Below the pieces are notes generated by a model. That model had not been told where the DNA came from. It did no database searches and was given only the letters and a program-made list of their open reading frames with translations. From the IMG/VR virus record IMGVR_UViG_3300028025_006220, positions 1-22,532 of that record: a DNA stretch of 22,532 bases. The stretch is one strand, 5' to 3'. Shown one piece after another: positions 2,819 through 22,324 of the stretch. The translations under genes and the position numbers were made by a program. Within the stretch, counting starts at the first letter, position 1, and every line of letters begins with the position of its first letter. The stretch is from a virus.

Positions 2819-2820
2819 TT

Positions 2821-4179: not shown

Positions 4180-4182
4180 AAT

Positions 4183-5970: not shown

Positions 5971-5971
5971 T

Positions 5972-7189
5972 ATGCCAAATAGATGGCCCATATCATCAGG
6001 TAATTGGAGTAATTCCTCAATATGGAGTGGTAGCATAATACCTACTGCATCGGATGATGTGTTTTTAAATAATCAAACGGTAACGTTAGATCAAAACGTA
6101 ACAGTAGTTAGTATACGAAATGCCGCAACCGGCAGTGCTGTAAATGGTGGAAGAATTGAAATTTATAGTGATTATAACATAACAACGACATTTCTCCCCA
6201 GTAGACCAGAAACAAATGGGTATATACAATATTTTAATACTGGTTCAATTACATTAACTGGTAATTTACCCCTAAATACTGCAGGTTTAGCTGGAAGTAT
6301 ACGTGGTATAGGAAATGTTGGTTCCGGAACTGTAAATTTTGTTGGAAACGTGTTCGGATTTGATAGTTCTGCTACTAGTTGGGGTATAGGAAATTTATCC
6401 TCAGGTACGGTTAATATAATAGGAAATGTTACTGCTGGTCGTAATGCTAGTGCTTTTGGTGTGTATAATGCTCTAAACGGTATTATAACAATAACTGGAA
6501 ACGTTGATGGAGGAACTACTAGTTTTAATAGAGATGCGGTATATAATTTAGGAGTAGGAACGATAATAGTTACGGGAAATGTAATAGCTGCTAGTACAAC
6601 TCCATCATATGGTATAAATAATGTTTCAATAGGAACGGTAACAGTAACTGGAAATGTAACAGCATCAGGATCTGCAGGTATTAACTCAACCGCAGCAGGT
6701 ACCATAAACGTAATAGGACAGTTACAAGCATCAACAACAGCCAATGCAGTATCGTCAACCTCAACCGCAGCAACCAACATATTCTCAGGCCCACTCATTA
6801 ATTCAGGCTCACGTAACGCAATATATTGCTATAACGTACGATTATATGATGATGTAACAACACGTTACACAATTGGAGTATCTGGTTCAACCAATACAAT
6901 TACATTATTCTCACCCGATCAAGTAACCGGAGTACCTTCGGGTTCCGATGTTAGAGTAGGAACAATTTATGGACCCGGAAATGAATTAACAGGTTCAATG
7001 CAAGTACCAAACCAAAATTCGGTAGCATATGGTGTACCTATAGACAATACATCTGGTTCTGCTTTAGTTAATCCGGAAGATTTATGGAATTTTGCTTTAA
7101 CTTCATTAACATCATCCAATTCAATAGGACAAAGACTAGCTTCAACAGCAACAACTGCTTCTAATGCTGCTATTATCAATTCATTTTAA
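5972..7189 (+). CDS. Beta-solenoid adhesin, paralogue 4 of 4
   Basis: A 405-residue protein. I placed the start at 5972 (MPNRWPISSGNWSN) because the upstream in-frame ATG at 5948 lies inside the preceding gene and the MPNRWP start matches paralogue 1 exactly. The cap IWSGSIIPTASDDVFLNNQT is nearly the same as in paralogue 1. The middle has steps such as NIIGNVTAG, TITGNVDGG, IIVTGNVIAA and VTVTGNVTAS, each about 30 residues apart with intervening YGINN/FGVYN segments, a regular beta-solenoid. The C-terminal block holds GSDVRVGTIYGPGNELTGSM, GVPIDNTSGSALVNPEDLW and SIGQRLASTAT. It is the shortest copy, with fewer solenoid coils. It is probably a virion surface fibre; the target is unknown. Confidence 0.75.
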   Translation: MPNRWPISSGNWSNSSIWSGSIIPTASDDVFLNNQTVTLDQNVTVVSIRNAATGSAVNGGRIEIYSDYNITTTFLPSRPETNGYIQYFNTGSITLTGNLPLNTAGLAGSIRGIGNVGSGTVNFVGNVFGFDSSATSWGIGNLSSGTVNIIGNVTAGRNASAFGVYNALNGIITITGNVDGGTTSFNRDAVYNLGVGTIIVTGNVIAASTTPSYGINNVSIGTVTVTGNVTASGSAGINSTAAGTINVIGQLQASTTANAVSSTSTAATNIFSGPLINSGSRNAIYCYNVRLYDDVTTRYTIGVSGSTNTITLFSPDQVTGVPSGSDVRVGTIYGPGNELTGSMQVPNQNSVAYGVPIDNTSGSALVNPEDLWNFALTSLTSSNSIGQRLASTATTASNAAIINSF

Positions 7190-7202: not shown

Positions 7203-9590
7203 ATGGCTGATTTCTCACAAGAAAAAAAATATGACTATAATTGGGAAAATTCCAAATTTAAAGACGTTTTATTTAAAGGAAACAAAATATCTAATTTAGT
7301 TAATGATGTAGGATATCTTACATCTGCTGGAAGTATTTTAAGTGCTTCATTTGCATCTACAGCATCATATGTTAACCCATTACGTCAAAATGTATATTTA
7401 ACAGGTTCATTTAATGTAACTGGTTCTACAACACAAATTGGAAATAATTCATTACTAGGTAACACAGTACTATCGGGATCATTAACTATATCTGGTAATA
7501 CCATAATGACTGGTTCTATAACGGCCACTAACTTAACAGCATCTTTTGGATATGTTTCTGCATCATTTTTAGATATAACGGGTAAACAAGTAGTTAGAGG
7601 ATTTACCCAATATTTACCTACAAACGACTCTATACCAGTTACAGAAGTAGGAGGTTACATTTACTCCTCAGGATCTCAAGGAGATTTATATTTCTCCCAA
7701 ACAAATGGAATATTAACTAATGTAACACGATTACGTTGGATAGAAGGAAACCTGTATACAGGCTTATTAAATGGGGGTGTAATATCAACAGCATCTTCTA
7801 CCGTTTTTAATGTATCATCAGGTTCAGGTATTGTAGTAACACTTAATGGTTCACTTTCATCAGATCCATATCCAACAGTAAACTATATTTCTTGGGGTAA
7901 TTTATCATCAAGTATAGCTCCTTTAAGTGCATCATATGACCAATCATTTATTGCTATTGAACCTAGTGGATCAAACGGTATAATATATGCTAGTGGCACA
8001 CCATATAACGATGGACAGTATAATACGTTAATTCCAATCGGAAACGTAATCCACCAGAATAGATCAACTATAAATGCAACTGCAACATATCCTTCTGTTG
8101 CATATGGATATAAACAACGAACAAATGATTTTATACGAGCATTCGGTCCATTAAAATTATCTGGGTTAGGTACATACGTGAGTGGATCCTCAACCGGAAG
8201 TTTAATAATAGCATCAGGTACAGCATATAGTGATGGCCGAAACTACTTAACAGACCCAGATAACCCTTCGTATGTGACTGACCCAGGAACTACTACATCT
8301 AAAATATTTAGATATAGACAATCGGGTTCTGGATGGGCATATGATACTAATGGCGGAGCTGGATATTTATCAATTGACCCAACCCAATATTCACTTAACG
8401 GTGTATTAACCCCGGTACCTGGAACTGGAATAAACAGACGATGGACAATTCAACGAGTATACTATTTTCCATCTGGTGCAACAAAAGGAATATATGTTTA
8501 TTATGGTAATGAAACATACGCTACTCTAATTGAAGCCACCGCAAATATACAATTTGAAGACTTTATAGAGGCACCAAATACAGCAGCAGGAGCTATCCTT
8601 TCATCATATCTTGTTGTAAGAAACAATGCAGATTTTACAGTACCTGAATCATATAATATACAACAAGGTGGATTATTTAGAAATGTAGGTGGTTCTGGTG
8701 GTGGAGGTTCTGCGGTATCGCAAACTTTAACGGGATTAACAGATGTACTAATATCTGGTCCAACTACAGGACAACCTCTAGTATATGATAATGCAACATT
8801 AAAATGGGAGAATAATTCCACACTAACTGCAACATTAATTGGTACAGCATCATATGCTCAAACCGCTTCATATGTTACTAATTTAAACCAATCTGTAACA
8901 ATTGGAAACATAACCAGTACCCCATCTAATGAAAACACATTAAACATCTACCCAGCCCATGCTGGTGGAACCGGTGAAGGAGGACAAATATTATTAGCAG
9001 CATCAGGTGGATTATATACATCTGCATCAATGATAGACAATTGGCAAAATTATTTTAGAATTTTAAGAGGTACAAATACTGGAGGAAGTAATGCTCAATT
9101 AATTGGTTTAGATTTACAAACTGGAAACCTTTCAGTAGCAGGAGCAGTAATCCCAGGCACATGGACAGCTGGACAAGTAATCAAAGATACCATGTTGAGT
9201 AATACTGAAGTAACTATCAGCACCACAACTATAGCAACTAGCAATTCTGATACAGATTTTTTAACTTACAGTTACACCCCAGTAAGTTCTAATAGTTATT
9301 TAGTGATTCATTATCACTTATCTAATTACGATTTTTCTGGTGGAACAGGAAATGATTCGTATATTTCTAGAATAAAAGTAGATGGTGGAGAAATAACATT
9401 TTCAACACAAAGTACAGTCAATGGTAACCGTAGCCCAGTCCTTTTTCCATTAACAGGAAGATACACCAACTCTAGTACAGCAGCAAAATCAATAGTTGTT
9501 GCATGTCGTAGAAATTCTGCTGATGATAGTATAACAATAACAAATTCTTCAACTTCAATGTGGTTAAGAATAACAGAGATAGCTAGATAA
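7203..9590 (+). CDS. Large modular tail fibre protein
   Basis: A 795-residue protein built of modules. Residues 1-35 form a soluble N-terminal segment (YDYNWENSKFKDVLFKGNKI). Residues 35-130 hold shaft-like repeats: GYLTSAGSILSASFASTASY, then GSFNVTGST, LSGSLTISGNTIMTGSITAT. Residues 130-490 form a large beta-rich region with YASGTPYNDGQYNTLIP and an IASGTAYSDGRNYLTDP echo, suggesting an internal repeat. A glycine linker (GGSGGGGS, near 495) precedes LTGLTDVLISGPTTGQPLVY, a knob repeat widespread in phage fibres. The shaft signature then recurs (ASYAQTASYV). The C-terminal 140 residues start GTWTAGQVIKDTML and end SMWLRITEIAR, resembling a jelly-roll receptor-binding tip. It probably forms a trimeric fibre that contacts the host. 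It closes the adhesion module before the neck genes. Confidence 0.75.
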   Translation: MADFSQEKKYDYNWENSKFKDVLFKGNKISNLVNDVGYLTSAGSILSASFASTASYVNPLRQNVYLTGSFNVTGSTTQIGNNSLLGNTVLSGSLTISGNTIMTGSITATNLTASFGYVSASFLDITGKQVVRGFTQYLPTNDSIPVTEVGGYIYSSGSQGDLYFSQTNGILTNVTRLRWIEGNLYTGLLNGGVISTASSTVFNVSSGSGIVVTLNGSLSSDPYPTVNYISWGNLSSSIAPLSASYDQSFIAIEPSGSNGIIYASGTPYNDGQYNTLIPIGNVIHQNRSTINATATYPSVAYGYKQRTNDFIRAFGPLKLSGLGTYVSGSSTGSLIIASGTAYSDGRNYLTDPDNPSYVTDPGTTTSKIFRYRQSGSGWAYDTNGGAGYLSIDPTQYSLNGVLTPVPGTGINRRWTIQRVYYFPSGATKGIYVYYGNETYATLIEATANIQFEDFIEAPNTAAGAILSSYLVVRNNADFTVPESYNIQQGGLFRNVGGSGGGGSAVSQTLTGLTDVLISGPTTGQPLVYDNATLKWENNSTLTATLIGTASYAQTASYVTNLNQSVTIGNITSTPSNENTLNIYPAHAGGTGEGGQILLAASGGLYTSASMIDNWQNYFRILRGTNTGGSNAQLIGLDLQTGNLSVAGAVIPGTWTAGQVIKDTMLSNTEVTISTTTIATSNSDTDFLTYSYTPVSSNSYLVIHYHLSNYDFSGGTGNDSYISRIKVDGGEITFSTQSTVNGNRSPVLFPLTGRYTNSSTAAKSIVVACRRNSADDSITITNSSTSMWLRITEIAR

Positions 9591-9636
9591 TCTTAATATC
9601 TTTATTTACCGTCTATCAAATAACTTAATTGCTTGA

Positions 9637-9645
9637 TATTTATAA
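9637..9645 (+). promoter_or_regulatory. TATTTATAA element (candidate late promoter)
   Basis: Exact nonamer in the 67-base gap upstream of the neck-protein gene, ending 12 bases before the ATG at 9658. The leader between them is A-rich and has no Shine-Dalgarno. It probably starts the transcript for the 9658-12586 neck and tail-completion genes. Confidence 0.55.
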
Positions 9646-9657
9646 CAAAATACTAAA

Positions 9658-10803
9658 ATGGCAAACATACCTATATGGCCGGGCTCAAGTAGCTTCTTTC
9701 CTGGCGACACACCTTTTGGATTTTACGATAATGATTATCAATTCCAACAAGATGCTGACAAATTTGCTAAATTTGCAGCTCAACGTTTAGGTTATCCTTT
9801 AGTTGAGATTGAATTACAAAACATTAATTTTTACACAGCTCTAGAAGATGCTGTTACTACTTACGGAAACGAACTATACGCTTACCAAGCAGCAGATAAT
9901 TTACTTTCTTTCCAAGGTAACTCAACTTCAATTGGTGCCCCAAATGATAGACTCATCTCAGAAAATTTAGCAGGTGTAGTTTTACTTTCCGATCAATATG
10001 GCGAAGAAGCAGGTGTTGGTGGAACAGTAACATATCATACAGGTTCTATTGATTTAAAATATAGAGTACAAAACTACGATATGAATGAATGGGCAATTTC
10101 CCAAAGCATATCAGGTGGAATTGAAATTAAACGTATATTTTACGAGGCGCCTCCCGCTATTACAAGATATTTTGACCCATATGCAGGTACAGGTACCGGT
10201 ATGATGCAAATGTTAGATAGTTTTGGATGGGGATCATATTCACCAGCTATTAACTTTATGTTAATGCCTATGAATTACGATTTGCAAAAAATACAAGCTA
10301 TTGAATTAAATGACCAAATTAGAAAGTCACAATACACTTTTGAATTGGTTAACAATCAATTAAGACTATTCCCTATACCGACAGGAGGTCTACAAAAATT
10401 AAATTTTCATTACATACTTAAAACTGAACGAAACAATCCATATTCTGGTGGTTCTGATTTAATTACAAATGTATCAAATATACCATATGAAAACCCAACA
10501 TATACTAATATAAATTCAATTGGACGTTCATGGGTATTTGAATATTCTTTAGCATTGGTAAAAGAAATGCTAGGATATGTTAGAGGAAAATATGCTAATA
10601 TACCAATCCCAGGATCTGAAATTACATTAAACCAATCAGACTTAATCGCAGCAGCAACTAGTGAGAAAACAGCACTAATTGAACGTTTAAGATTATATTT
10701 TGATACAACTTCTCGTAAAGCATTACTAGAGAAAAAAGCAGCCGAAGGTGAGGCTCAACAAAAAACAATTAATTACGTTCCAATGAACATTTTTGTAGGA
10801 TAA
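9658..10803 (+). CDS. Neck protein, T4 gp13-like
   Basis: A 381-residue structural protein that looks like the gp13-type neck protein of T4-like phages, which with gp14 seals the filled head and joins it to the tail. The most telling part is residues 44-78, LGYPLVEIELQNINFYTALE followed by DAVTTYGNEL: marine T4-like gp13 proteins carry a similar 'PxVdVELt...f..AlddAl..Y' segment near the N-terminus. The middle has the runs AITRYFDPYAGTG and FMLMPMNYDLQKIQAIEL. The C-terminus is helical and charged (TSEKTALIERLRLYFDTTSR), consistent with packing against the portal ring. Position also supports the call, because the next two genes look like gp14 and gp15, the T4 order. The assignment is by pattern memory, so an unrelated neck/connector protein remains possible. 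Confidence 0.65.
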   Translation: MANIPIWPGSSSFFPGDTPFGFYDNDYQFQQDADKFAKFAAQRLGYPLVEIELQNINFYTALEDAVTTYGNELYAYQAADNLLSFQGNSTSIGAPNDRLISENLAGVVLLSDQYGEEAGVGGTVTYHTGSIDLKYRVQNYDMNEWAISQSISGGIEIKRIFYEAPPAITRYFDPYAGTGTGMMQMLDSFGWGSYSPAINFMLMPMNYDLQKIQAIELNDQIRKSQYTFELVNNQLRLFPIPTGGLQKLNFHYILKTERNNPYSGGSDLITNVSNIPYENPTYTNINSIGRSWVFEYSLALVKEMLGYVRGKYANIPIPGSEITLNQSDLIAAATSEKTALIERLRLYFDTTSRKALLEKKAAEGEAQQKTINYVPMNIFVG

Positions 10804-10804
10804 T

Positions 10805-11314
10805 ATGGCACTATTTGGATCAGCTCGTGATATTTCATTGTTTAGACATCTCAATAGAGAGTTGTTGTGGGATGTTATTACTCAACAATGTGTATTTTAT
10901 CAACTTAAAACAGCTGAAACAAAAGTAAACATATATGGTGAAGCAGCAGGTACAAGACTATACGCAGAACCAGTTCTCTTAAACGTGCTAATTGATAGAG
11001 GAGATGCTACTGCCCCAGTAGATGATTTTGGTGTAAGCTATGATCGACCTATGACATTTAAATTCCTACGAGACGATTTAGTTGACTTTAATGTATTGCC
11101 TGAAGTTGGAGATATTATAATGTGGTATGAATCATATTGGGAAATAAATAATGTGAATAATAATCAACTTGTAGTTGGAAAAGACCCAGCTTATCCATAT
11201 AATGAAAATCCATTAAACCCAGGACTAGAAAACTTTGGTTCAGATTGGTCTGTTATTTGTACAGCTCATTATACACCATCTGATAAAGTTCAAATTACTA
11301 GAGAAAGAATTTAA
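10805..11314 (+). CDS. Neck protein, T4 gp14-like
   Basis: A 169-residue protein resembling gp14 neck proteins of T4-like phages, which attach with gp13 below the portal after DNA packaging. Recognisable features are the N-terminal LLWDVITQQCVFYQLKTAET, then YGEAAGTRLYAEPVLLNVLI (about residues 50-69), the strand FGVSYDRPMTFKFLRDDLVD, and the block LPEVGDIIMWYESYWEINNV followed by VVGKDPAYPYNENPLNPG. The 'vGDii.w...yyeI.nv..nq...GKdP' block is the strongest family signal. It is shorter than T4 gp14 (256 residues), which is common in marine relatives. It starts one base after the gp13-like stop (TAATATG), so the pair is probably translated together. Confidence in a neck role is good. Confidence 0.72.
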   Translation: MALFGSARDISLFRHLNRELLWDVITQQCVFYQLKTAETKVNIYGEAAGTRLYAEPVLLNVLIDRGDATAPVDDFGVSYDRPMTFKFLRDDLVDFNVLPEVGDIIMWYESYWEINNVNNNQLVVGKDPAYPYNENPLNPGLENFGSDWSVICTAHYTPSDKVQITRERI

Positions 11315-11317
11315 TAT

Positions 11318-12586
11318 ATGCCATCAACTAGAAAACCCACTCCGAAATCTCAAAAACAGATTTCAAATGAGCAGATAGAACCATATGTGTTTCCTGGAAC
11401 TGGGGAATCTTATGGCAATCCTAATATACCTTCCGATTTTAATCAATTTACAGCAAACGAACAAAATGGATTAGGTATTAATCGTTCATTGCAAACATCA
11501 TTTAAAGGAGATACTACAAAACCATTTACAGTAGGGTTTGAAGATATAGATGAATCTATAATGTATTATTTTGAGAATGTAATTCGTCCATATGTTATCC
11601 AAAATAACGTAAGAACTCCTGTTCCCATCATATATGGTTCTCCGGAACGTTGGAAATCAACACAAAAAGATGGATATTATAAAGATAAAAATGGTGCTAT
11701 TATGGCTCCACTTATTATGTTTAAACGTGAAAGTATAGACAAAAATAGATCTTTAGGAAATAAAATGGATGCTAATACACCACATTTATATACATCTTGG
11801 AAAAAAACATATAACCCAAAGAATGCATATTCAAATTTTGATCTATTAAATAATCGCATCCCGACAGAACAATTTATTGTTAATATTATCCCAGATTATG
11901 TTACTATAAGTTATACTTGTGCTATCCAAACATATTACGTATCCCAATTAAATAAGATTGTAGAGGCAATTAATTACGCATCTGATTCATATTGGGGTGA
12001 CCCGGAACGATTTAAATTTATGGCTACCATTAATTCCTTTTCCACACCAATTGAAATCTCAGATAATTCTAATAGAATAGCCAAATCAAATTTTACATTA
12101 ACAATTAAAGGATACATTATTCCAGATAATATCCAAAAACAATTAACATCTATAAAAAAATACAATAGTAAATCCCAAGTTATCATTGGATTAGAAGTTG
12201 AAGGTGTAGGAGGTGAATTTATTTCTTCTAGACCTAAAAAATCAGCAGTTTCCCTTCCAGGCCCTGCAGAAGAGGGCACTAATACAAGTTTAGTAGATAA
12301 TCAAGTTTTAGTTTATTTAAATTCAAATGTTACTTTACAAGGAATTTATGTAAATGCTACAACAGCAACTTTTTCTTCGGGGTGGTTAACATCTCCCCCA
12401 AATCTTCCTACAACATCAATTAATGATTTTACATTTTTTATTAATGGGGTATTGATTAATAATTCAAACATAGTTTCATTTACCCAAAATAACGGAGTTT
12501 CAACATTGGTTATTAATCCATCTTTGTTAGGATATTCTTTAGATCCTACAGATGGAATCATAGCAGTTGGAAAATTTAGTAATTAA
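11318..12586 (+). CDS. Tail completion/sheath terminator, T4 gp15-like
   Basis: A 422-residue protein whose central part (about residues 80-290) resembles gp15, the hexameric protein that caps the T4 tail and stabilises the sheath. Key segments are ESIMYYFENVIRPYVI, VRTPVPIIYGSPERW (the family's 'PV.YG..erW' motif, near residue 103) and GAIMAPLIMFKRESI (the '.lPri.f.R' motif). The middle continues with IVNIIPDYVTISYTCAIQTY then YVSQLNKIVEAINYASDSYW, and ends with SNFTLTIKGYIIPDNIQ. The N-terminal ~60 residues are polar and look disordered. The last ~110 residues (from about 312) look like an added beta domain with VLVYLNSNVTLQGIYVNATT and FTFFINGVLI strands. Gene order (13-14-15) matches T4. 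The long C-terminal extension is not typical of T4 gp15. Confidence 0.68.
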   Translation: MPSTRKPTPKSQKQISNEQIEPYVFPGTGESYGNPNIPSDFNQFTANEQNGLGINRSLQTSFKGDTTKPFTVGFEDIDESIMYYFENVIRPYVIQNNVRTPVPIIYGSPERWKSTQKDGYYKDKNGAIMAPLIMFKRESIDKNRSLGNKMDANTPHLYTSWKKTYNPKNAYSNFDLLNNRIPTEQFIVNIIPDYVTISYTCAIQTYYVSQLNKIVEAINYASDSYWGDPERFKFMATINSFSTPIEISDNSNRIAKSNFTLTIKGYIIPDNIQKQLTSIKKYNSKSQVIIGLEVEGVGGEFISSRPKKSAVSLPGPAEEGTNTSLVDNQVLVYLNSNVTLQGIYVNATTATFSSGWLTSPPNLPTTSINDFTFFINGVLINNSNIVSFTQNNGVSTLVINPSLLGYSLDPTDGIIAVGKFSN

Positions 12587-15283: not shown

Positions 15284-17047
15284 ATGGCAGAAACAATTGT
15301 ATCACCTGGTGTATTAGCCATAGAAAATGATCAATCATTTATTACACAAGCCCCAGTTCAAGCAGGAGCAGCAATTATAGGACCAACTCCTAAAGGAAAA
15401 GTTGGAATCCCTACATTATGTACAACATATAGTGACTATACTAATAAGTATGGTACTACATTTCTTAGTGGAGGTCAATCATATACCTACTTAACCTCAA
15501 TTTCAGCTTATAACTATTTTAACAATGGTGGGTCAGCTTTACTTGTAACTAGAGTAGTAAGTGGTAGCACTTTAACAGCCTGGACACCAGCTTCATCCTC
15601 ATTTGTTTCATCATCTAATCATTCTGCAGGTGCTCCATACAATACTAGTGTATTTGTATTGGAAACTCTTGCTGAAGGAAAAATATTAAATAGTGATGGC
15701 CCTACAGGTTCAAACGATACTTTATTAAGTGGTTCATCTAATAATTACAGATGGCAAATACTTTCTCCAAACATTGATAACGGAACTTTTACATTGTTAA
15801 TTAGACAAGGTAATGATTCAAGTGTTCAACCATCAATTATAGAAACTTGGGGTCCGTTATCATTAGATCCATTTTCTCCAAATTATATTGAAAAAATAAT
15901 TGGAAATCAATATGAAACTATTCAAGAAGATGATGGTGAGTATTATATTCAAACCGTAGGTAATTATCCTAACATATCAAATTATGTTCGTGTTAAACAA
16001 GTAAATCAACCTACTCCAAATTATTTTAATAATTTAGGTTTACCTAAAAATGAATATACAGGTTCACTTCCAAAAGCGGCCCAAGGAGTATTTGGTAATG
16101 GAAATGGAGATAATATTCCAACATTTGCTACTGGAGCATATTATGAAAATATTACCAATACAAATATTCAAGGATTAAGTGCAAACGATTATACTGAATC
16201 TATAGCATTACTGGCTAATAAAGATGCTTACAAATATAATTTTATTACAGCACCTGGATTAATAGCAGATGATACATTTACAAATCATGTTTCTGTAATA
16301 ACACAACTAGTTAATACTGTTACTGAAAGAGCAGATACCATGACGGTTATTGATTTGGTAAAATATAATTCTCCTATTAATGCTATTTTAACTAACGGTG
16401 CTAGAACATTATATGACAATTCATATGTTGCTAATTATTGGCCTTGGGTTAAAACAATTGATCCCAATACAGCTACTCAAAGATGGGTTCCTGCTTCTAC
16501 TATGATACCTGGAGTTTATGCTAAAAATGATTCTATATCATATCCTTGGTTTGCTCCTGCAGGAATAAATAGAGGAATAATTACTAATGCTCTTGCAGCA
16601 GAAAGATTTTTAACCCAAGGAAATAGAGATTCACTTTATCAAGCCAATATCAACCCAGTAGCAACATTCCCAAATTCCGGTGTTACTGTATTTGGACAAA
16701 AAACATTACAGAAAAAACAAAGTGCATTAGATCGTGTAAATGTAAGACGTTTACTAATTGAATTAAAAAATTATATTTCTCAAGTAGCAAACTCATATGT
16801 ATTTGAACAAAATGATACAGTTACTAGAAATGAATTGTCATCTATTATTAATTCTTATTTATCTACAGTTCAAAATAATCAAGGATTAACATCTTATCAA
16901 GTTGTAATGGATGAATCTAACAATACACCAACAGTAATAGATAACAACCAGTTAATAGGTCAAATTTATTTACAACCTACAAAAACAGCTGAATTTATTA
17001 TTTTAGATTTCAACATATTACCTACAGGTGCAGTTTTCCCATCTTAA
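15284..17047 (+). CDS. Tail sheath protein 1, T4 gp18-like
   Basis: A 587-residue contractile tail sheath subunit. The N-terminus (SPGVLAIENDQSFITQAPVQ, AGAAIIGPTPKGKVGIPTLC) and SYTYLTSISAYNYFNNGGSA (about residues 66-85) are the usual first-domain signature. The middle (residues 100-300) is a variable, probably surface-exposed insertion. The C-terminal domain is strongly conserved: WFAPAGINRGIITNALAAER (about 424-443), VFGQKTLQKKQSALDRVNVR, RLLIELKNYISQVANSYVFE and LIGQIYLQPTKTAEFIILDF. In T4 this domain forms the inner sheath that grips the tube. The gene has its own TATTTATAA element and is followed 45 bases later by a second sheath gene. A sheath role is near certain; its share of the sheath relative to the second copy is unknown. 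Confidence 0.93.
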   Translation: MAETIVSPGVLAIENDQSFITQAPVQAGAAIIGPTPKGKVGIPTLCTTYSDYTNKYGTTFLSGGQSYTYLTSISAYNYFNNGGSALLVTRVVSGSTLTAWTPASSSFVSSSNHSAGAPYNTSVFVLETLAEGKILNSDGPTGSNDTLLSGSSNNYRWQILSPNIDNGTFTLLIRQGNDSSVQPSIIETWGPLSLDPFSPNYIEKIIGNQYETIQEDDGEYYIQTVGNYPNISNYVRVKQVNQPTPNYFNNLGLPKNEYTGSLPKAAQGVFGNGNGDNIPTFATGAYYENITNTNIQGLSANDYTESIALLANKDAYKYNFITAPGLIADDTFTNHVSVITQLVNTVTERADTMTVIDLVKYNSPINAILTNGARTLYDNSYVANYWPWVKTIDPNTATQRWVPASTMIPGVYAKNDSISYPWFAPAGINRGIITNALAAERFLTQGNRDSLYQANINPVATFPNSGVTVFGQKTLQKKQSALDRVNVRRLLIELKNYISQVANSYVFEQNDTVTRNELSSIINSYLSTVQNNQGLTSYQVVMDESNNTPTVIDNNQLIGQIYLQPTKTAEFIILDFNILPTGAVFPS

Positions 17048-17092: not shown

Positions 17093-18790
17093 ATGGCAAA
17101 TTTCACAGCATCTCCTGGAGTTTCACTAAATGAGATAGATAACACGTTTTTAACAGCACAACCCACACAAGCGGGTGCGGCTATAATAGGACCTACAGTA
17201 AAGGGCCCTGTTGAAATCCCAATATTAGTTACCTCCTATTCAGATTATCAAAACATTTTTGGAGATTCTTTTATAAGTGGAGGAAACTCATATTCATATT
17301 TTACTTCTATTGCAGCATATAATTATTTTAATTATGGTGGTACTTCATTATTAGTAGCTAGAGTGGTAACAGGATCTTATTCCTCAGCCACTAGTTCAGC
17401 GGTTATTAATGAATTTACTTCATCATCATTCTCTTTAGAAACAATATCTGAGGGAGTAATTATGAATAGTACTGGAAGTGAAACTACTAATAATGTTTTA
17501 GTATCTGGTTCTCAAAATAATGTAAGGTGGGAAATTACAGCCCCTAACACAGGATCAGGAACATTTAATGTGTTAATTAGAAGAGGAGATGATGCTTCTA
17601 ATAAAAAAATAATTTTAGAAGCTTGGAATAATGTTACTTTAGACCCAAATTCTTCAAATTATATATCTAAAGTAATAGGAGACCAAACATTAAACTATGA
17701 CTCAACAGATAACCAAATGGAAATCTCAGGATCATATCCAAATAATTCACGATATGTTCGTATCAAATCAGTAAATTATCCAACACCTAACTATTTAGAT
17801 TCAAACGGTACCCCATTAACTCAATTTACAGGGTCTATTCCACTTGCTCAAAGTGGTTCATTTGGTGCAGCTACAGGAAATATAATAGGAGGTGCTAAAT
17901 TTTATGAAACTATTACTTCAGGAAATACTCAAGGAATTTCACCTACTAGTTATAATAATATGATTAGTTTATTAGGTAATACTGAAGCATACCAATTTAA
18001 TGTATTATTTACTCCTGGTTTAACTAACGATTTGCATACATCTCAAGTAACTAGTATAATTACTAATACAACTTCAAGAGGAGATAGCTTATATGTAGTT
18101 GATTTAGGTACTTATGGAACATCAGTTTCAGGAATAAATATTCAAGCCCAATCTAGAGATACATCATATGCTGCTGCTTATTTTCCTTGGGTACGCATCA
18201 TCGATCCAGGAACAGGAAGACATATTTGGGCCCCAGCATCAACTGTAATCCCAGGTGTATATGCATTTAATGATAAAGTATCTGCCCCTTGGTTTGCCCC
18301 CGCAGGTATTAATCGTGGTGGTTTAAATACTGTACTATCCGCTGAAATGAAATTATCCCAGAATCAAAAAGATTCTTTATATGAAAATAATGTTAACCCA
18401 TTAGCTACTTTACCAAAACAAGGTGTTGTAGTATTTGGACAAAAAACATTACAAAAAGCATCTTCTGCACTTGATAGAGTAAATGTAAGACGTTTATTAA
18501 TTGAATTGAAAAACTACATCCGTCAAATTGCAGATACAGTAGTATTTGAACAAAACACAATTTCTACAAGAAATTCATTCCTTGCAAGAGTAAATCCATA
18601 TTTAGAAACCATCCAACAAAAACAAGGTTTATATGCCTTTAAAGTAATTATGGATGATTCAAATAATGGACCAGATGTAATAGATAGAAATCAATTAATA
18701 GGCCAAATTTATATTCAACCAACACGCACAGCTGAATTTGTTTCTCTAGATTTTATTTTACAACCAACAGGAGCTGAGTTTCCTGGGTAA
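17093..18790 (+). CDS. Tail sheath protein 2, T4 gp18-like
   Basis: A 565-residue second sheath subunit, by eye roughly half identical to the first. The N-terminus reads MANFTASPGVSLNEIDNTFL with AGAAIIGPTVKGPVEIPILV. The C-terminal domain has APWFAPAGINRGGLNTVLSA, VFGQKTLQKASSALDRVNVR, RLLIELKNYIRQIADTVVFE and LIGQIYIQPTRTAEFVSLDF. All conserved sheath landmarks are intact, so this is a working gene rather than a decaying copy. The central region (about residues 100-290) is shorter than in copy 1 and differs most. Both proteins may co-assemble, or one may serve a special position such as the baseplate-proximal or neck-proximal ring; the sequence does not decide this. The tube gene follows 52 bases later. 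Confidence 0.93.
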   Translation: MANFTASPGVSLNEIDNTFLTAQPTQAGAAIIGPTVKGPVEIPILVTSYSDYQNIFGDSFISGGNSYSYFTSIAAYNYFNYGGTSLLVARVVTGSYSSATSSAVINEFTSSSFSLETISEGVIMNSTGSETTNNVLVSGSQNNVRWEITAPNTGSGTFNVLIRRGDDASNKKIILEAWNNVTLDPNSSNYISKVIGDQTLNYDSTDNQMEISGSYPNNSRYVRIKSVNYPTPNYLDSNGTPLTQFTGSIPLAQSGSFGAATGNIIGGAKFYETITSGNTQGISPTSYNNMISLLGNTEAYQFNVLFTPGLTNDLHTSQVTSIITNTTSRGDSLYVVDLGTYGTSVSGINIQAQSRDTSYAAAYFPWVRIIDPGTGRHIWAPASTVIPGVYAFNDKVSAPWFAPAGINRGGLNTVLSAEMKLSQNQKDSLYENNVNPLATLPKQGVVVFGQKTLQKASSALDRVNVRRLLIELKNYIRQIADTVVFEQNTISTRNSFLARVNPYLETIQQKQGLYAFKVIMDDSNNGPDVIDRNQLIGQIYIQPTRTAEFVSLDFILQPTGAEFPG

Positions 18791-18842: not shown

Positions 18843-19331
18843 ATGGCAATTTTAAATCCTAACGAAATATTCTACACAGCATTTGAACCAAGGCTAACAA
18901 ACCGTTTCATCCTTTATATGGATGGAATCCCATCATATTTGGTAAAAGGAATGGGTGCTATTTCATTAACACAAACAGCAGTTGCTCTTAACCACATCAA
19001 CGTTCAACGTTATGTAAAAGGAAAAACTATTTGGAATACAGTTCAATTCACATTATTTGAAGCTATTACTCCTGCTGGTTCACAAACAGTAATGGAATGG
19101 GTTCGTTTAGGCCATGAATCAGTAACAGGTAGAGATGGTTATTCTGATTTCTATAAAAAAGATATTACATTTAATGGTTTAGGTCCTGTAGGTGATATTG
19201 TTAACGAATGGATTATCAAAGGAGCTATGATTACTGAAGTTAACTTTGGAGATTATAACTGGGATGATGATGGTACAGCAGTAAATATTACAGTAACAGT
19301 ACAACCAGATTATTGTATCTTGAATTACTAA
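18843..19331 (+). CDS. Tail tube protein, T4 gp19-like
   Basis: A 162-residue tail tube subunit, almost exactly the length of T4 gp19 (163). It fits the phage T4 gp19 tube family: NRFILYMDGIPSYLVKGMGA near the N-terminus (residues 20-39), the strand NHINVQRYVKGKTIWNTVQF, an EAITPAGSQTVMEWVRLG helix (about 75-92), and the C-terminal IIKGAMITEVNFGDYNWDDD then VNITVTVQPDYCILNY. Tube rings stack inside the sheath and form the channel for DNA. The gene follows the two sheath genes, the conserved 18-19 order, and is followed by a strong terminator. The portal gene (gp20), which comes next in T4, is not here. Confidence 0.93.
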   Translation: MAILNPNEIFYTAFEPRLTNRFILYMDGIPSYLVKGMGAISLTQTAVALNHINVQRYVKGKTIWNTVQFTLFEAITPAGSQTVMEWVRLGHESVTGRDGYSDFYKKDITFNGLGPVGDIVNEWIIKGAMITEVNFGDYNWDDDGTAVNITVTVQPDYCILNY

Positions 19332-19413: not shown

Positions 19414-19422
19414 TATTTATAA
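19414..19422 (+). promoter_or_regulatory. TATTTATAA element heading the exported-protein cassette
   Basis: Exact nonamer just downstream of the terminator, ending only two bases before the ATG at 19425. With the terminator it marks the three following genes as a separate transcription unit. A T4-type start about six bases beyond the element would fall inside the coding region, so either the transcript begins at or near the ATG or the element acts differently here. Confidence 0.5.
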
Positions 19423-19424
19423 GC

Positions 19425-20018
19425 ATGAAATTATTTGTTGTTATATTATTTGTTTTAATTTCTTATTTTAGTTATAGTCAATGTAATGGAACACAATCAT
19501 TTACTCTATCCCCACTACCAGTAGGAGGAACTTATTTACCTGGTCAAACAGTAACAATGTGTTATACAATGAATGGATATACACAAACCGGTACTAATTG
19601 GGTTGAAGGATTTGATTTAACATTAGGTGCAGGATGGTCATCAGTAACTCCTCAAACAGCTCCTGCTAATTGTGGAGGTAATGCAACTGGAGGACAATGG
19701 GTATGGAAAACCTCAGTAACATCAACCACAACCCCTATAGTAACAGTAGGACCAGGATACTTTTTTGATTTAACCGTAGATAGTAATCCCGGAAATGATT
19801 TTGGAGACGCAGGCTCATGTACTTGGACATTTTGTGTTACTTTAGTAGTAGCAAATGTATGTACCCCTCAAAGTTTATTAATTCAAGTTACCGCAGGTTC
19901 TGATGGGCTTTGGGGTAGTTACACGAGTAATAGCTGTGATGCCGTAACGCCTTTTAACGTGTTTAATGGAACAATTAACGCAACAACCCCTGTATTAGGG
20001 AATATTATTCATAACTAA
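19425..20018 (+). CDS. Exported protein resembling the N-terminal domain of T9SS surface adhesins
   Basis: A 197-residue protein with a clear signal peptide: MKLFVVILFVLISYFSYSQ (residues 1-19), a hydrophobic core ending in S-Q, as is typical of Bacteroidota, with likely cleavage before Gln19. The mature part has seven cysteines (20, 46, 83, 132, 137, 146, 171), suggesting disulfides and a periplasmic or outside location. Landmarks are GTYLPGQTVTMCYTMNGY (35-52), NWVEGFDLTLGAGW (58-71), VGPGYFFDL (108-116), GNDFGDAGSCTWTFCVTL (123-140) and DGLWGSYTSNSCD (160-172). From memory, this matches a domain at the N-terminus of very large gliding/T9SS-associated surface proteins of Flavobacteriia and relatives. 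It ends in LGNIIHN and has no sorting domain of its own. Cys20 is not in a lipobox. Probable host-derived cargo; the molecular function is unknown. Confidence 0.75.
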   Translation: MKLFVVILFVLISYFSYSQCNGTQSFTLSPLPVGGTYLPGQTVTMCYTMNGYTQTGTNWVEGFDLTLGAGWSSVTPQTAPANCGGNATGGQWVWKTSVTSTTTPIVTVGPGYFFDLTVDSNPGNDFGDAGSCTWTFCVTLVVANVCTPQSLLIQVTAGSDGLWGSYTSNSCDAVTPFNVFNGTINATTPVLGNIIHN

Positions 20019-20028
20019 AAACAAAAAA

Positions 20029-20586
20029 ATGAAAAAATTAATTTTTACACTTCTTCTAATTATCCCATCAATTGTTTATTCTCAATTGACAACAATTAAC
20101 CCGGATACAGTTTGTTACCAAACCACAGCATTATCAACTTATACAATACCTTCAGTAGGTGCAGGAACATATACTTGGACAATTCCTGCTTGTGCTACAT
20201 TAACCTCAGGTCAAGGAACAAATTCAATCCAAGTAAATTGGTCAGCTTGCCCTCCAGGATTAATTAATAATGCAATTACAGTAGCATATTCAAGTGCAGC
20301 TGGATGCCCTGCTCTACCAGTAACACTTAATGTGTTGATATACCAAGTTATCCCTGTAATTACCCCAGTAGGACCTTTTTGTGCTAATGACCCATGTCTA
20401 GTATTAACAGCAACACCTACAGGAGGAATATGGAGTGGTACAGGTGTATCGGGAAATCAATTTTGTCCCGGAACAACAAATTCATTGATTACTTATACTT
20501 ATACTCAAAGTGGATGTACATTTAGTGCTAATACAGGAGCAGTTATCAATCCAGTACCAGTATTATCTCCAATACAACATAATTAA
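20029..20586 (+). CDS. Exported PKD/Ig-like domain protein
   Basis: A 185-residue protein with signal peptide MKKLIFTLLLIIPSIVYSQ (residues 1-19). The mature part contains two beta-sandwich units of the PKD/Ig-like kind common in Bacteroidota surface proteins. The first (about 20-106) has GAGTYTWTIPACATLTSGQG, then TNSIQVNW and a VAYSSAAGC strand. The second (about 107-175) has PVGPFCANDPCLVLTATPTG and GIWSGTGVSGNQFCPGT ahead of ITYTYTQSGC. The 'GtYtWtiP...sGqGTnsI.V.W' and 'PiGPfC..D..v.LtA.P.GG.WSG.GV' patterns are characteristic of repeats inside large T9SS-exported adhesins. It ends with VLSPIQHN, similar to the end of the preceding protein. Eight cysteines suggest disulfides. The gene lies 10 bases after its neighbour and overlaps the next start by one base (TAATG). 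Probably exported to the periplasm or surface. Confidence 0.75.
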   Translation: MKKLIFTLLLIIPSIVYSQLTTINPDTVCYQTTALSTYTIPSVGAGTYTWTIPACATLTSGQGTNSIQVNWSACPPGLINNAITVAYSSAAGCPALPVTLNVLIYQVIPVITPVGPFCANDPCLVLTATPTGGIWSGTGVSGNQFCPGTTNSLITYTYTQSGCTFSANTGAVINPVPVLSPIQHN

Positions 20587-21149
20587 TGAAATTAATTTTT
20601 TCCATATTATTTTTAATACCTTTACTAGTATTTTCTCAACAAACCATAGAGATATGTGATGATGTTAAATACTTTAGTTATTCAACTCAATCGGATATTG
20701 CTAGTAACATTGAATGGTATTGTGATGGACAATATTATTATGGAAATGAAATAACAATTGCATGGAATGAACCGGGAACATATATAATAACAGCTACTGC
20801 TACTGCAGATGGATGTTCTAGTATTCCTCAAACATATAATGTTATTGTAATTGAATGTGATCCTTTACTTTATTGGGTTCCAAATACATTTACTCCAAAT
20901 GATGATGAATATAATACAACATGGGGTCCTATGTTTGAAGGCCCATATGAAAAAGATGATTTTCATTTAATTGTACTTAATAGATGGGGAAATTTAATAT
21001 GGGAGAGCTGGAATGCTGAATCACGTTGGGATGGAACCTACAACAATAAATCAGTAACAGATGGAGTTTACACTTGGGTTATTGATTTTGGAATATTGGG
21101 TACAGACGAACGTAGATTAATTCATGGACACGTTACTATAATTAGATAA
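20586..21149 (+). CDS. T9SS type-B sorting domain (CHU_C) protein
   Basis: A 187-residue exported protein. Residues 1-18 (MKLIFSILFLIPLLVFSQ) are a signal peptide. Residues 19-92 form a short Ig/PKD-like unit (NIEWYCDGQYYYGNEITIAW, GTYIITATATADGCS). Residues 97-187 are a gliding-motility-associated C-terminal domain (TIGR04131 / CHU_C, PF13585): VPNTFTPNDDEYNTTWGP, FHLIVLNRWGNLIWESWNA, RWDGTYNNKSVTDGVYTWVI and a final GHVTIIR. In Bacteroidota this domain directs Sec-exported proteins through the type IX secretion system to the cell surface. All landmarks are present and the domain reaches the very end of the protein, as required. The start overlaps the preceding stop by one base, so it is translationally coupled. 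A T9SS signal on a phage gene implies delivery to the surface of a T9SS-positive host; the effect there is inference. Confidence 0.85.
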   Translation: MKLIFSILFLIPLLVFSQQTIEICDDVKYFSYSTQSDIASNIEWYCDGQYYYGNEITIAWNEPGTYIITATATADGCSSIPQTYNVIVIECDPLLYWVPNTFTPNDDEYNTTWGPMFEGPYEKDDFHLIVLNRWGNLIWESWNAESRWDGTYNNKSVTDGVYTWVIDFGILGTDERRLIHGHVTIIR

Positions 21150-21154
21150 TATAA

Positions 21155-21163
21155 TATTTATAA
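21155..21163 (+). promoter_or_regulatory. TATTTATAA element (candidate late promoter)
   Basis: Exact nonamer in the 27-base gap after the cassette, 13 bases before the ATG at 21177. It restarts transcription for the assembly genes that follow. Confidence 0.55.
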
Positions 21164-21176
21164 CATATATCGAAAA

Positions 21177-21548
21177 ATGAAATTAAATAATTTACGCGCG
21201 TTAGTTAAGGAAGAACTAAATAAAAAATTAAACGAAGAATACCAAGATAAATTTAAAATGGTAGGCATGTTAATTTCCAACATCCAACAACGCCCTCAAA
21301 AAGAAATCTATTCCGATATTAGAGCCATTACTGGAATTTCAGTTATTTCATCTAAAGAACCACTTGAATATAGTGAACAAGATACAGAAAAATTTAAATC
21401 TATATTAACTGTAAAAGTAGATGGTTATCCTTGGATTGTAAAAGGAGGATTTGACCGCACAAAAATGCAAGAAATCGCAGCCCAAGTAAGAAAAGTACCA
21501 GGAGTAATATCATTTAATATAAATCCTGATAATATTACTACTCTTTAA
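21177..21548 (+). CDS. Small phage protein, possible ferredoxin-like fold
   Basis: A 123-residue protein. The N-terminal ~25 residues are a charged helix (MKLNNLRALVKEELNKKLNE). The rest has a repeated pattern: IRAITGISVISSKEP (about 48-62) and VRKVPGVISFNINPD (about 104-118) are similar helix-turn-strand units ('iR.i.GV..i.') on either side of a central strand FKSILTVKVDGYPWIV. This gives a beta-alpha-beta arrangement consistent with a ferredoxin-like or ACT-like fold. I recall similar small proteins in other tailed phages near structural genes, without an assigned function. It lies downstream of a TATTTATAA element and 41 bases before the baseplate-type gene. The coding call is firm; the fold is tentative. 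Confidence 0.7.
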   Translation: MKLNNLRALVKEELNKKLNEEYQDKFKMVGMLISNIQQRPQKEIYSDIRAITGISVISSKEPLEYSEQDTEKFKSILTVKVDGYPWIVKGGFDRTKMQEIAAQVRKVPGVISFNINPDNITTL

Positions 21549-21589: not shown

Positions 21590-22324
21590 ATGGAAGAATC
21601 AAAGTTCAATTTACCAACAGAAACAATTGAATTACCCTCAAAAGGTTTACTTTACGCTGAAGGAACAGAATTAGCAAGTGGTAAAATCGAAATGAAATAT
21701 ATGACAGCTAAGGAAGAAGATATCCTTACTAACCAATCATATATTAAAAATGGTACAGTATTAGATAAATTAATGAAATCACTCATTGTATCTAAAATAA
21801 ATTACGATGATTTATTAGTAGGAGATAAAAATGCCATTATGGTAGCATCACGTATCCTAGGATATGGTTCCGAATATACTTTTGAATATAATGGGGAAAT
21901 GCATACCATTGATTTATCAACTATTGAAAGTAAACCATTAAAAGAAGATTTATTTAATAATCATGTAAATGAATTTATTTTTACCTTACCACATTCAAAA
22001 AATACAATTACGTTTAAACTTTTAACCCATAAAGACGAACAAGATATAAATCGTGAATTAGAAGGACTTAAAAAAATTAACAAAAATAATTCCCCCGAAT
22101 TATCTACTCGTTTAAAATATCTCATAACCTCAGTAAATGGGGAAAGAGAAAAAAAAGATATTCGAGAATTTATTGATAATTATCTCTTAGCCAAGGATTC
22201 CAGAGCTTTAAGAGAATATATTAAAGAGATTCAACCCGATGTTGATCTAACTTTTTTTCCCGACGGAAATAGCAATAGAGTCAATATCCCAGTTGGGGTT
22301 AGCTTTTTTTGGCCTGACGTATGA
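21590..22324 (+). CDS. Baseplate assembly protein, T4 gp26-like
   Basis: A 244-residue protein of the T4 base plate protein type (gp26 family, PF12322), involved in building the baseplate hub. Characteristic parts are ETIELPSKGLLYAEGTEL (residues 11-28), KIEMKYMTAKEEDILTNQSY (32-51), NGTVLDKLMKSLIV and the DDLLVGDKNAIMVASRILGY block, then YGSEYTFEYNGEMHTIDLST, where many relatives have a Cys-rich pair that is missing here. The C-terminal half is helical and ends PVGVSFFWPDV. The coding frame crosses two runs of seven T (22252-22258 and 22304-22310) and stops at a TGA followed at once by TAG. A conserved-looking sequence continues in another frame beyond it (next entries). There is no TATTTATAA upstream; a looser TTATATAAAAT lies about 10 bases before the start. 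Confidence 0.72.
   Translation: MEESKFNLPTETIELPSKGLLYAEGTELASGKIEMKYMTAKEEDILTNQSYIKNGTVLDKLMKSLIVSKINYDDLLVGDKNAIMVASRILGYGSEYTFEYNGEMHTIDLSTIESKPLKEDLFNNHVNEFIFTLPHSKNTITFKLLTHKDEQDINRELEGLKKINKNNSPELSTRLKYLITSVNGEREKKDIREFIDNYLLAKDSRALREYIKEIQPDVDLTFFPDGNSNRVNIPVGVSFFWPDV
22304..22310 (+). other. T7 run, candidate frameshift site
   Basis: Codons AGC TTT TTT TGG of the gp26-like gene include seven consecutive T. A +1 or -2 shift on this run gives the frame that stays open through the following 220 bases to the window end; a -1 shift would hit TGA at 22315. A second T7 run lies at 22252-22258. Frameshift sites on such runs are well known in phage tail assembly genes, and phage Mu uses a -2 shift. 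It could also be a homopolymer sequencing error. Confidence 0.4.

Follow-up and report, generated by a model that had tools for sequence, protein, structure and literature searches.

Gene C of a viral DNA of 22,532 bases (IMG/VR virus record IMGVR_UViG_3300028025_006220, analysed over its whole length and called the window below) encodes a small protein that ends in a type B sorting domain of the type IX secretion system (T9SS). C is the last of three neighbouring genes, A, B and C, which encode predicted exported proteins and form one unit. Export of C through the T9SS of the host appears very probable. We propose, with slightly more confidence than doubt, that the cassette A-B-C provides a phage-encoded surface adhesin made in three chains and displayed through the Sec pathway and the T9SS of the host. 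Whether the three chains assemble in some form seems an evenly balanced matter, and their docking head to tail, by means of a short C-terminal tail found on A and B, is offered as a tentative suggestion.

The sorting domain of C and the A-B-C cassette

Two models of the type B sorting domain match C above their cut-offs: PF13585 (CHU_C; E=3.6e-14, 53.1 bits against a cut-off of 27, residues 98-175) and TIGR04131 (E=5.7e-12, 45.6 bits against a cut-off of 35, residues 98-187). The former matched none of 14 control genomes. According to passages of PMC12618676, the secretion of SprB needs the five conserved motifs, A-E, of its type B domain; the match to C covers nearly the full length of the TIGR04131 model (positions 3-85 of 85), a comparison of the domain as a whole and not of its motifs one by one. 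Among A, B and C of the window, only C is matched by a sorting-domain model, and none of the three matches the type A sorting domain (TIGR04183/PF18962). C begins with 17 residues followed by Q18, a stretch that resembles a signal peptide both to the eye and under a crude rule given below. Within C, the sorting domain has a mean pairwise identity of 0.490 against 0.378 for the first domain, and is the more similar of the two in 87% of 2850 pairs. The original prediction, made from the letters of the window, had given C a Sec signal peptide and a full-length type B C-terminal domain. The signal peptide is borne out by eye and by the crude rule, and the domain by the search against TIGR04131 and PF13585 that the prediction had proposed, in which both matched significantly. 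The prediction had also taken C for a T9SS cargo that the phage exports for itself. This stands in so far as the type B domain is genuine, has relatives in many viral contigs and shows signs of purifying selection, but C is not a lone cargo, being the last of three exported pieces.

The same unit was found in many viral contigs. Scans of IMG/VR gave 25 loci for C, the best 80 of 108 stretches for A and the best 80 of 105 for B, and the alignment of C holds 46 stretches (45 loci). For the count of cassettes, 209 sequences (the window and 208 loci, cited here by L numbers) were scanned with models of A, B and C, and entries with duplicate ends (the final 120 residues of B and of C) were counted once. 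This leaves at least 78 different B-C pairs in IMG/VR; in 67 of them A was recognised by a script that seeks only A before B before C on one strand and is blind to other orders. In the list of profile matches those of the cassette do follow the order A, B, C; extra matches to B or C lie in other genes of L002, L091 and L108. B and C overlap by 1 nucleotide (nt) in 56 of the 78 pairs. Searching with a DNA pattern of the B-C junction gave 63 stretches; our models place B upstream or C downstream in 61 and both in 60, and the matches in L436 and L454 are due to chance. Contigs bearing the cassette reach 262, 281, 296 and 436 kb. Two public records of uncultured phages, of 635 and 642 kb, hold four and three CHU_C genes, respectively: the first encodes a single-chain relative of B-C of 732 codons, and the second an open reading frame (ORF) of 1675 codons matched by C only. 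Bacteroidetes hosts have been predicted for five genomes larger than 634 kb in passages of Al-Shayeb et al. 2020 (PMC7162821), to whose set of genomes these two records presumably belong, although its main text does not list their accession numbers.

All three proteins look exported. In the 11 loci read first, every piece has, by eye, a signal peptide followed by glutamine. The crude rule asks for a hydrophobic stretch and then a small residue followed by glutamine, with the best-fitting start codon chosen for A, B and C. The rule holds for A in 66 of 67 cases, for B in 76 of 78 and for C in 77 of 78 (219/223), and for 85 of 646 control ORFs, taken from the remaining viral ORFs of 150 codons or more and tested with every methionine as a possible start. 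A glutamine after the site of signal-peptide cleavage has been described for Bacteroidota (Bochtler et al. 2018, PMC5837995, in the part available). A had no match in Pfam or PHROG at E up to 1 and none above cut-off in NCBIfam, and the first domain of B matches PKD_6 (E=9.5e-10).

The ratio of nonsynonymous to synonymous substitution rates (dN/dS) was computed among the window, L005, L006 and L007. It is 0.08-0.19 in the 12 pairs of A and B and 0.06-0.12 in three pairs of C, a further pair of C being saturated, and lies below 0.2 in 15 of the 17 computable pairs of the three genes. Elsewhere in the same region it is 0.05-0.13 for the tail tube, 0.06-0.20 for the gene of 123 amino acids (aa) after the cassette and 0.07-0.24 for the baseplate hub. 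Across 64 cassettes, the pairwise distances of B and C correlate closely (r=0.83) and those of A correlate less well with either (0.55 and 0.51), as would fit a base that is stable and a tip that can be exchanged.

Cellular genomes hold the same modules within longer proteins. A scan of genome contigs for C gave 240 relatives (32-51% identity in the best 80 of 240), and many titles of the best of them name Flavobacteriales, Crocinitomicaceae or Fluviicola. First searches found A neither in the genome-contig scan nor in any of 14 genomes. A profile search among 399 genomes from the order to which a Fluviicola genome belongs detected the module in 63, usually as part of a large ORF, and the idea that A is a phage-only module was rejected. 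Twelve cellular stretches were fetched. Five of their ORFs, of 1342-1881 codons, read A, then several B-like modules, then CHU_C; in four of the five, A immediately follows the N-terminus. A sixth ORF (L334), of 2906 codons, contains A and CHU_C and no match to B, and the remaining six stretches are cut by their ends or hold A alone. The gene order in the phages is the domain order of these predicted cellular proteins.

The I-x-H-N tail and the first domains of B and C

A and B, which appear to be unrelated, share the same C-terminal tail, I-x-H-N-stop. Among 67 distinct ends of A, isoleucine is found at -4 in 66, and histidine at -2 and asparagine at -1 in all 67; among 78 distinct ends of B, proline at -5, isoleucine at -4 and histidine at -2 are each found in 77, and the last residue is asparagine in 74 and aspartate in four. 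The profiles of A and B align over the signal peptide only. In the AlphaFold2 (AF2) model of B, residues 183-185 have predicted local distance difference test (pLDDT) scores below 50, though residues 181-185 are nearly invariant; such an end would fit a short peptide that serves binding or sorting.

The tail extends to other genes. Eleven pairs lacked a recognised A. L008 does have A, missed there by the script; six pairs (L132, L133, L134, L138, L174 and L175) have a different first gene ending in H-N; L182 has a tailed gene after C, L017 and L288 are truncated, and L303 is an exception whose endings vary. The alternative first genes differ at the front, with a glycine-rich ALK_LTK_GRD domain in L132 and none named in L174, and share an end module of 77-90 residues (41-77% identity), which matches a SprB repeat in L138. 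The same SprB-repeat end module follows an A module in L154 and L184. The tail is thus carried by at least three end modules, namely A, the end of B and the SprB repeat; the tailed genes of L182 and L438, the latter with three of them around one C, are partly alike and are counted apart from these three kinds. ORFs of at least 60 codons ending in [IVL]-x-H-[ND] amount to 147 distinct ones in the viral loci, themselves chosen for holding A, B or C, and 143 pass the signal-peptide rule. Eight of the 646 control ORFs end in H-[ND].

Fused genes place the tail at chain ends. Six distinct phage homologues carry B and C behind another N-terminal module in one ORF of 732-825 codons. The Pro/Ile pattern is partly kept at their junctions, and H-N is found at neither of the two junctions in any of the six; therefore, H-N goes with free chain ends and not with domains. 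The fused gene of L020 lies between the tail tube gene and the 123-aa gene, the same place as that of the split cassette of the window.

Other roles for the tail were considered and rejected. First, it does not look like a general host signal: no terminal tail match was found in 80 cellular CHU_C loci, and among the matches of the PIxHN-stop pattern, present in 79 of 299 genomes, 28 of the 30 Flavobacteriales loci checked hold only ORFs of at most 53 codons, one holds no ORF and one (L388) an exported-looking ORF of 171 codons. Second, it does not look like a general phage tag. The I-x-HN-stop pattern occurs in 20 of 21 phage records, outside cassettes too, and in two huge phages it is no commoner than a reversed control (13 vs 22; 3 vs 5). 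Forty stretches in 13 IMG/VR contigs around pattern matches and cassettes, the matches of the huge phages excluded, added no new tailed exported protein. Third, inteins end in H-N, and an intein-like role was discarded because nothing follows the asparagine and no intein model matched. Fourth, a polyprotein made by stop readthrough was set aside because B and C start with signal peptides. The phage record that holds L182 also encodes, about 4.5 kb from the cassette, a protein of 384 aa ending in SIGPIQHN (L377, 13680-14834, minus strand), which has a weak match to WD40, below the cut-off.

The first domains of B and C are homologous (67 of 75-88 columns aligned, hhalign probability 96.6, E=4.7e-10). 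In the same comparison mature A showed no match to either first domain, nor did B match C through its second domain. B and C thus share a first domain that A lacks, as expected if tails join pieces onto B and C. The single-chain AF2 model of B has a pLDDT of 80.7, and its best match among solved structures is the adhesin GhpA (9flu; E=5.4e-5, TMq 0.55).

Genomic setting and promoter motif

The cassette of the window lies within a module of contractile-tail genes (Table 1). The order tail tube, A, B, C, 123-aa gene and hub recurs elsewhere, e.g., in L005, L007 and L014 (98, 74 and 43% identity in C), and a chimeric assembly of phage and host DNA, which the original prediction had named as what would overturn it, is very unlikely given a synteny common to other contigs. 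Tail genes like those of the window were recognised in the flank of 19 of the 78 distinct cassettes (the window and 18 others) and in none of 58, in flanks often of 6 kb or less and at a threshold of E 1e-8, so that misses are possible; L121 has a minus-strand tail match only, is doubtful and was left out of the 19. The place of C between tail tube and baseplate genes, to which the original prediction had drawn attention, is real in the window and not typical of the cassette. It says little on a role in the tail because the setting is found in only 19 of 78 cassettes, and a structural role in the tail inferred from position was rejected.

Table 1. Coordinates of the cassette and of its surroundings in the window
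Feature	Position	Strand	Length or residues	Remarks
Tail sheath genes	15284..17047 and 17093..18790			Sheath-like paralogues; second phrog_23, E=4.1e-70
Tail tube gene	18843..19331	+		phrog_4542, E=2.9e-16
TATTTATA motif	19414..19421	+		Likely promoter of A-B-C
Gene A	19425..20018	+	197 aa	Predicted exported first module
A signal peptide	19425..19478	+	18 aa, then Q19	Predicted from sequence and alignment; Q19 invariant in its 10 rows
A C-terminal tail	19989..20015	+		PVLGNIIHN-stop; tail conservation in distinct A
Gene B	20029..20586	+	185 aa	Two beta-rich domains, PF19408 PKD_6 in first
B first domain, PKD-like	20083..20346	+	Residues 19-106	Proposed acceptor; homologous to C first domain
B C-terminal tail	20557..20583	+		PVLSPIQHN-stop; tail conservation in distinct B
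Gene C	20586..21149	+	187 aa	Predicted T9SS type B cargo; start overlaps B stop by 1 nt
C first domain, PKD-like	20637..20861	+	Residues 18-92	Proposed acceptor; profile comparison
C sorting domain, T9SS type B	20877..21146	+	Residues 98-187	TIGR04131 and PF13585 matches
Gene after cassette	21177..21548	+	123 aa	Own TATTTATA at 21155
Baseplate hub gene	21590..22324	+		phrog_150, E=1.8e-9

The motif TATTTATA has nine copies on the plus strand of the window, eight of them intergenic, and precedes both sheath genes and the tube gene. Its total is not unusual, the 12 copies on both strands being reached by 7 of 100 shuffles. Across cassettes, the 45 nt before the gene contain TATTTAT in 52 of 65 cases for A, 2 of 76 for B and none of 77 for C (2.5% of random 45-mers), and before A it is mostly 11-13 nt from the ATG. 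We take the motif to resemble late promoters of T4 or those of Bacteroidota. The cassette seems to bring its own promoter, and the motif suggests that A-B-C would be expressed together with the structural genes.

Several neighbouring genes were noted on the way. Two sheath-like paralogues stand side by side in many relatives with a tail context too. Positions 1424-7189 of the window hold a tandem series of four genes for products of 464, 452, 595 and about 405 aa. The products resemble each other at the N-terminus, are repetitive ('tGSvnitGnv' type) and may be repeat proteins of tail fibres or of an adhesin-like kind. At 36-740 the window has a gene with a Laminin_G_3 or concanavalin-like lectin domain (E=1.9e-14). 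Similar genes lie near several cassettes or their relatives outside the tail module, in L006 (8101-8505), L008 (10582-10992), L016 (12126-12533) and L029 (430-852); the products of these four begin with M-E-[LH]-[LI]-x-T-H-P-I-K-K-S-D and are, we presume, thioesterase-like. Upstream of the cassette, a large gene with a type A sorting domain at its end is present in L091 (160-4833; 38.9 bits against a cut-off of 23) and, with matches below the cut-off, in L132 (2473-4929), L133 (2484-4931) and L376 (534-5720), and some phages may carry T9SS cargo of both types, A and B. Soon after its cassette, L108 encodes a second type B cargo of 1040 aa with GEVED and Ig domains (9232-12351), and L170 has a C-matching ORF of similar size and position.

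Proposed assembly, alternatives and significance

We propose the following course of events. A-B-C would probably be made late in infection, given that the promoter motif also stands before the tail genes. Each chain would cross the inner membrane by Sec, cleavage exposing an N-terminal glutamine, and C would then be taken across the outer membrane by the T9SS of the host together with a PorP/SprF-like shuttle. Type B cargo that has been tested depends on such shuttles for secretion, and the shuttles have been suggested to anchor the cargo (passages of PMC12618676 and PMC9143113); porP/sprF genes are commonly downstream of type B genes (PMC12618676, same passages). A search of 16 phage records gave no PorP_SprF shuttle, whereas three cellular genomes hold 17, 15 and 12 copies, and none of 10 proteins of the window that were scanned matched it. 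Given this dependence of type B cargo and the negative search, the shuttle would have to come from the host. B would be a stalk and A, or the gene that substitutes for it, the outer piece, each tail docking on its partner: most simply, the tail of A on the first domain of B and the tail of B on the first domain of C. In its most specific form, which we put forward as speculation, the cassette would be a one-chain T9SS adhesin cut into interchangeable exported subunits: I-x-H-N would dock or covalently join to the next PKD-like domain, only the innermost subunit would have the T9SS anchor, and outer subunits would be exchanged between phages. The likely benefit would be an altered surface of the infected cell, serving attachment to particles or to new hosts, or the masking of receptors, although we would not back any single one of these purposes. 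The blocking of receptors against other phages and a change in gliding, both put forward in the original prediction, are conceivable roles.

A number of observations weigh against the three-chain adhesin. The A-B-C complex is a proposal; the models are of single chains, that of A being poor (pLDDT 51.5) and unusable. A and B have no sorting domain of their own by which they would pass the outer membrane, and one search of the literature for piggyback export through the T9SS yielded nothing clearly relevant. The homology of the first domains of B and C may reflect a mere common origin of repeated modules, PKD-like matches of the B type being found in 78 of 100 genomes of the Fluviicola family, and the comparison of acceptors was not blind, as cross-matches between the models of B and C had been seen beforehand. 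The tail has few independent carriers, since the alternative first genes share one end module, and L303 departs from it with the variant endings LPIIHSD and GIIYTD. A cellular Flavobacteriales ORF with a signal peptide (L388) ends in VKPIQHN, either by chance or as a cellular user of the tail. Tailed genes after C in L182 and L438 mean that gene order is not always chain order, and untailed genes, some exported-looking, lie between A and B in L115 (2063-3849), L118 (6612-7454) and L120 (1868-3088). The 58 cassettes without tail genes in their flank are phage by IMG/VR classing alone, and for the late timing the motif is the sole support. Lastly, dN/dS of C is 0.53 and 0.49 for the window and L005, respectively, against L007; window and L007 are 0.53 identical in the first domain and 0.95 in the sorting domain, and these high values would therefore come from the first domain, by divergence or recombination.

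The strongest competitor of the three-chain adhesin, which we hold to be the less probable but take seriously, is that the cassette encodes three independent exported proteins, of which C goes to the surface by the T9SS and A and B elsewhere, to the periplasm or the medium, the tail being a signal for a host factor or a guard against C-terminal proteases and not a joint. A tail on unrelated exported proteins is as expected of a sorting signal, A and B are without a sorting domain, and one cellular exported-looking protein ends in PIQHN. However, the tail was not found as a common host signal, with one exported-looking case among the 30 Flavobacteriales loci checked and none in the 80 cellular CHU_C loci, the distances of B and C run together, and the modules have the order of the one-chain cellular relatives. 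Superinfection exclusion by jamming is unlikely: C would occupy PorP/SprF-like shuttles or the gliding track and so remove host adhesins used as phage receptors, A and B being accessories. It draws on the need of type B cargo for cognate PorP/SprF shuttles (passages of PMC12618676 and PMC9143113), none of which was found in the 16 phage records, and on superinfection being named as a possible role of the T9SS cargo of Cryophage (PMC7468147, in the part available). Against it, a promoter motif common with the tail genes fits worse than an early promoter would, the exchange of first genes points to binding of something outside, and no receptor or assay is known.

That the three proteins are components of the virion, as Ig-like decorations or tail-associated adhesins of the particle, is very improbable. 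In the window and 18 more cassettes the three genes do have tail genes around or next to them, and the promoter motif is that of sheath and tube. Virions assemble in the cytoplasm, whereas all three pieces have signal peptides; moreover, 58 of 78 cassettes have no recognised tail gene in their flank (with the short flanks and the threshold given above), and within C it is the sorting domain that is best conserved. A recently captured host gene, or mis-assembled host DNA, without function in the phage would account for the cellular relatives of all modules, but has next to no probability in view of the synteny in several contigs, the low dN/dS in most pairs, the promoter motif common with the tail genes and a split architecture and tail that are absent from the cellular loci read.

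The three-chain adhesin proposed here can be set beside several known systems. The original prediction knew of no phage system of this kind; genes for T9SS sorting domains in phages are, however, already in print (passages of PMC7468147 and PMC6949934). Bellas et al. 2020 described type A T9SS domains in Cryophage, proposed a hijack of the host system and mentioned superinfection (PMC7468147, in the part available). Both are Bacteroidetes phage proteins with T9SS sorting domains, but the type A domains of Cryophage are on an endoglucanase, a GH39 and a PA14 protein and vary between strains, whereas here a type B domain belongs to a three-chain cassette with conserved tails. In gut phages, de Jonge et al. 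2019 reported proteins with T9SS sorting domains that are encoded close to head genes and beside BACON ORFs (PMC6949934, in the part available). These too are phage contigs with sorting domains near structural genes, yet they have BACON repeats and get a passing mention, with no cassette or tail described in those passages. The type B adhesins of flavobacteria (SprB; the cellular L326-L330) have A, B-like modules and CHU_C in the same order, and SprB repeats occur in some phage first genes and fused forms; theirs is one long chain, whereas the phages have three ORFs with their own signal peptides and no shuttle gene found in 16 records. GhpA of Aureispira (9flu, 9flp), besides being the best solved match for B, has a C-terminal region that matches the sorting domain of C (E=3.6e-7), but it is a giant single-chain cellular protein of 5898 residues. 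Fibres built by donor-strand exchange, such as chaperone-usher and type V pili, consist of exported subunits with a conserved terminal extension and an acceptor domain. The tails on the non-final A and B, and the first domain that B and C share and A lacks, are consistent with docking of this kind, without proving it; here the extension is C-terminal and short and has a fixed H-N end.

No type B phage cassette, split adhesin or I-x-H-N tail was found described in the literature searched, preprints and subscription papers lying mostly outside that search. In the papers searched, 'type B sorting domain' and 'phage' were not found together, and 'gliding motility-associated C-terminal' stood with 'phage' in two papers, both on bacterial genomes. 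Phage T9SS sorting domains are already known; head-to-tail assembly would be new in kind if real. For type B cargo, no structure of the C-terminal domain had been solved as of 2025, according to passages of PMC12618676. If the proposal is true, the split pieces, being small, would make a tractable model of such cargo, and I-x-H-N would represent a joint or a sorting tag of a new type, open to tests that use single residues or short peptides. Phages of Bacteroidota that form a common group, and of which some have very large genomes, would remodel the surface of the infected cell with an adhesin of their own, by way of the T9SS of the host, and phage biology would be linked to gliding, adhesion and the availability of receptors.

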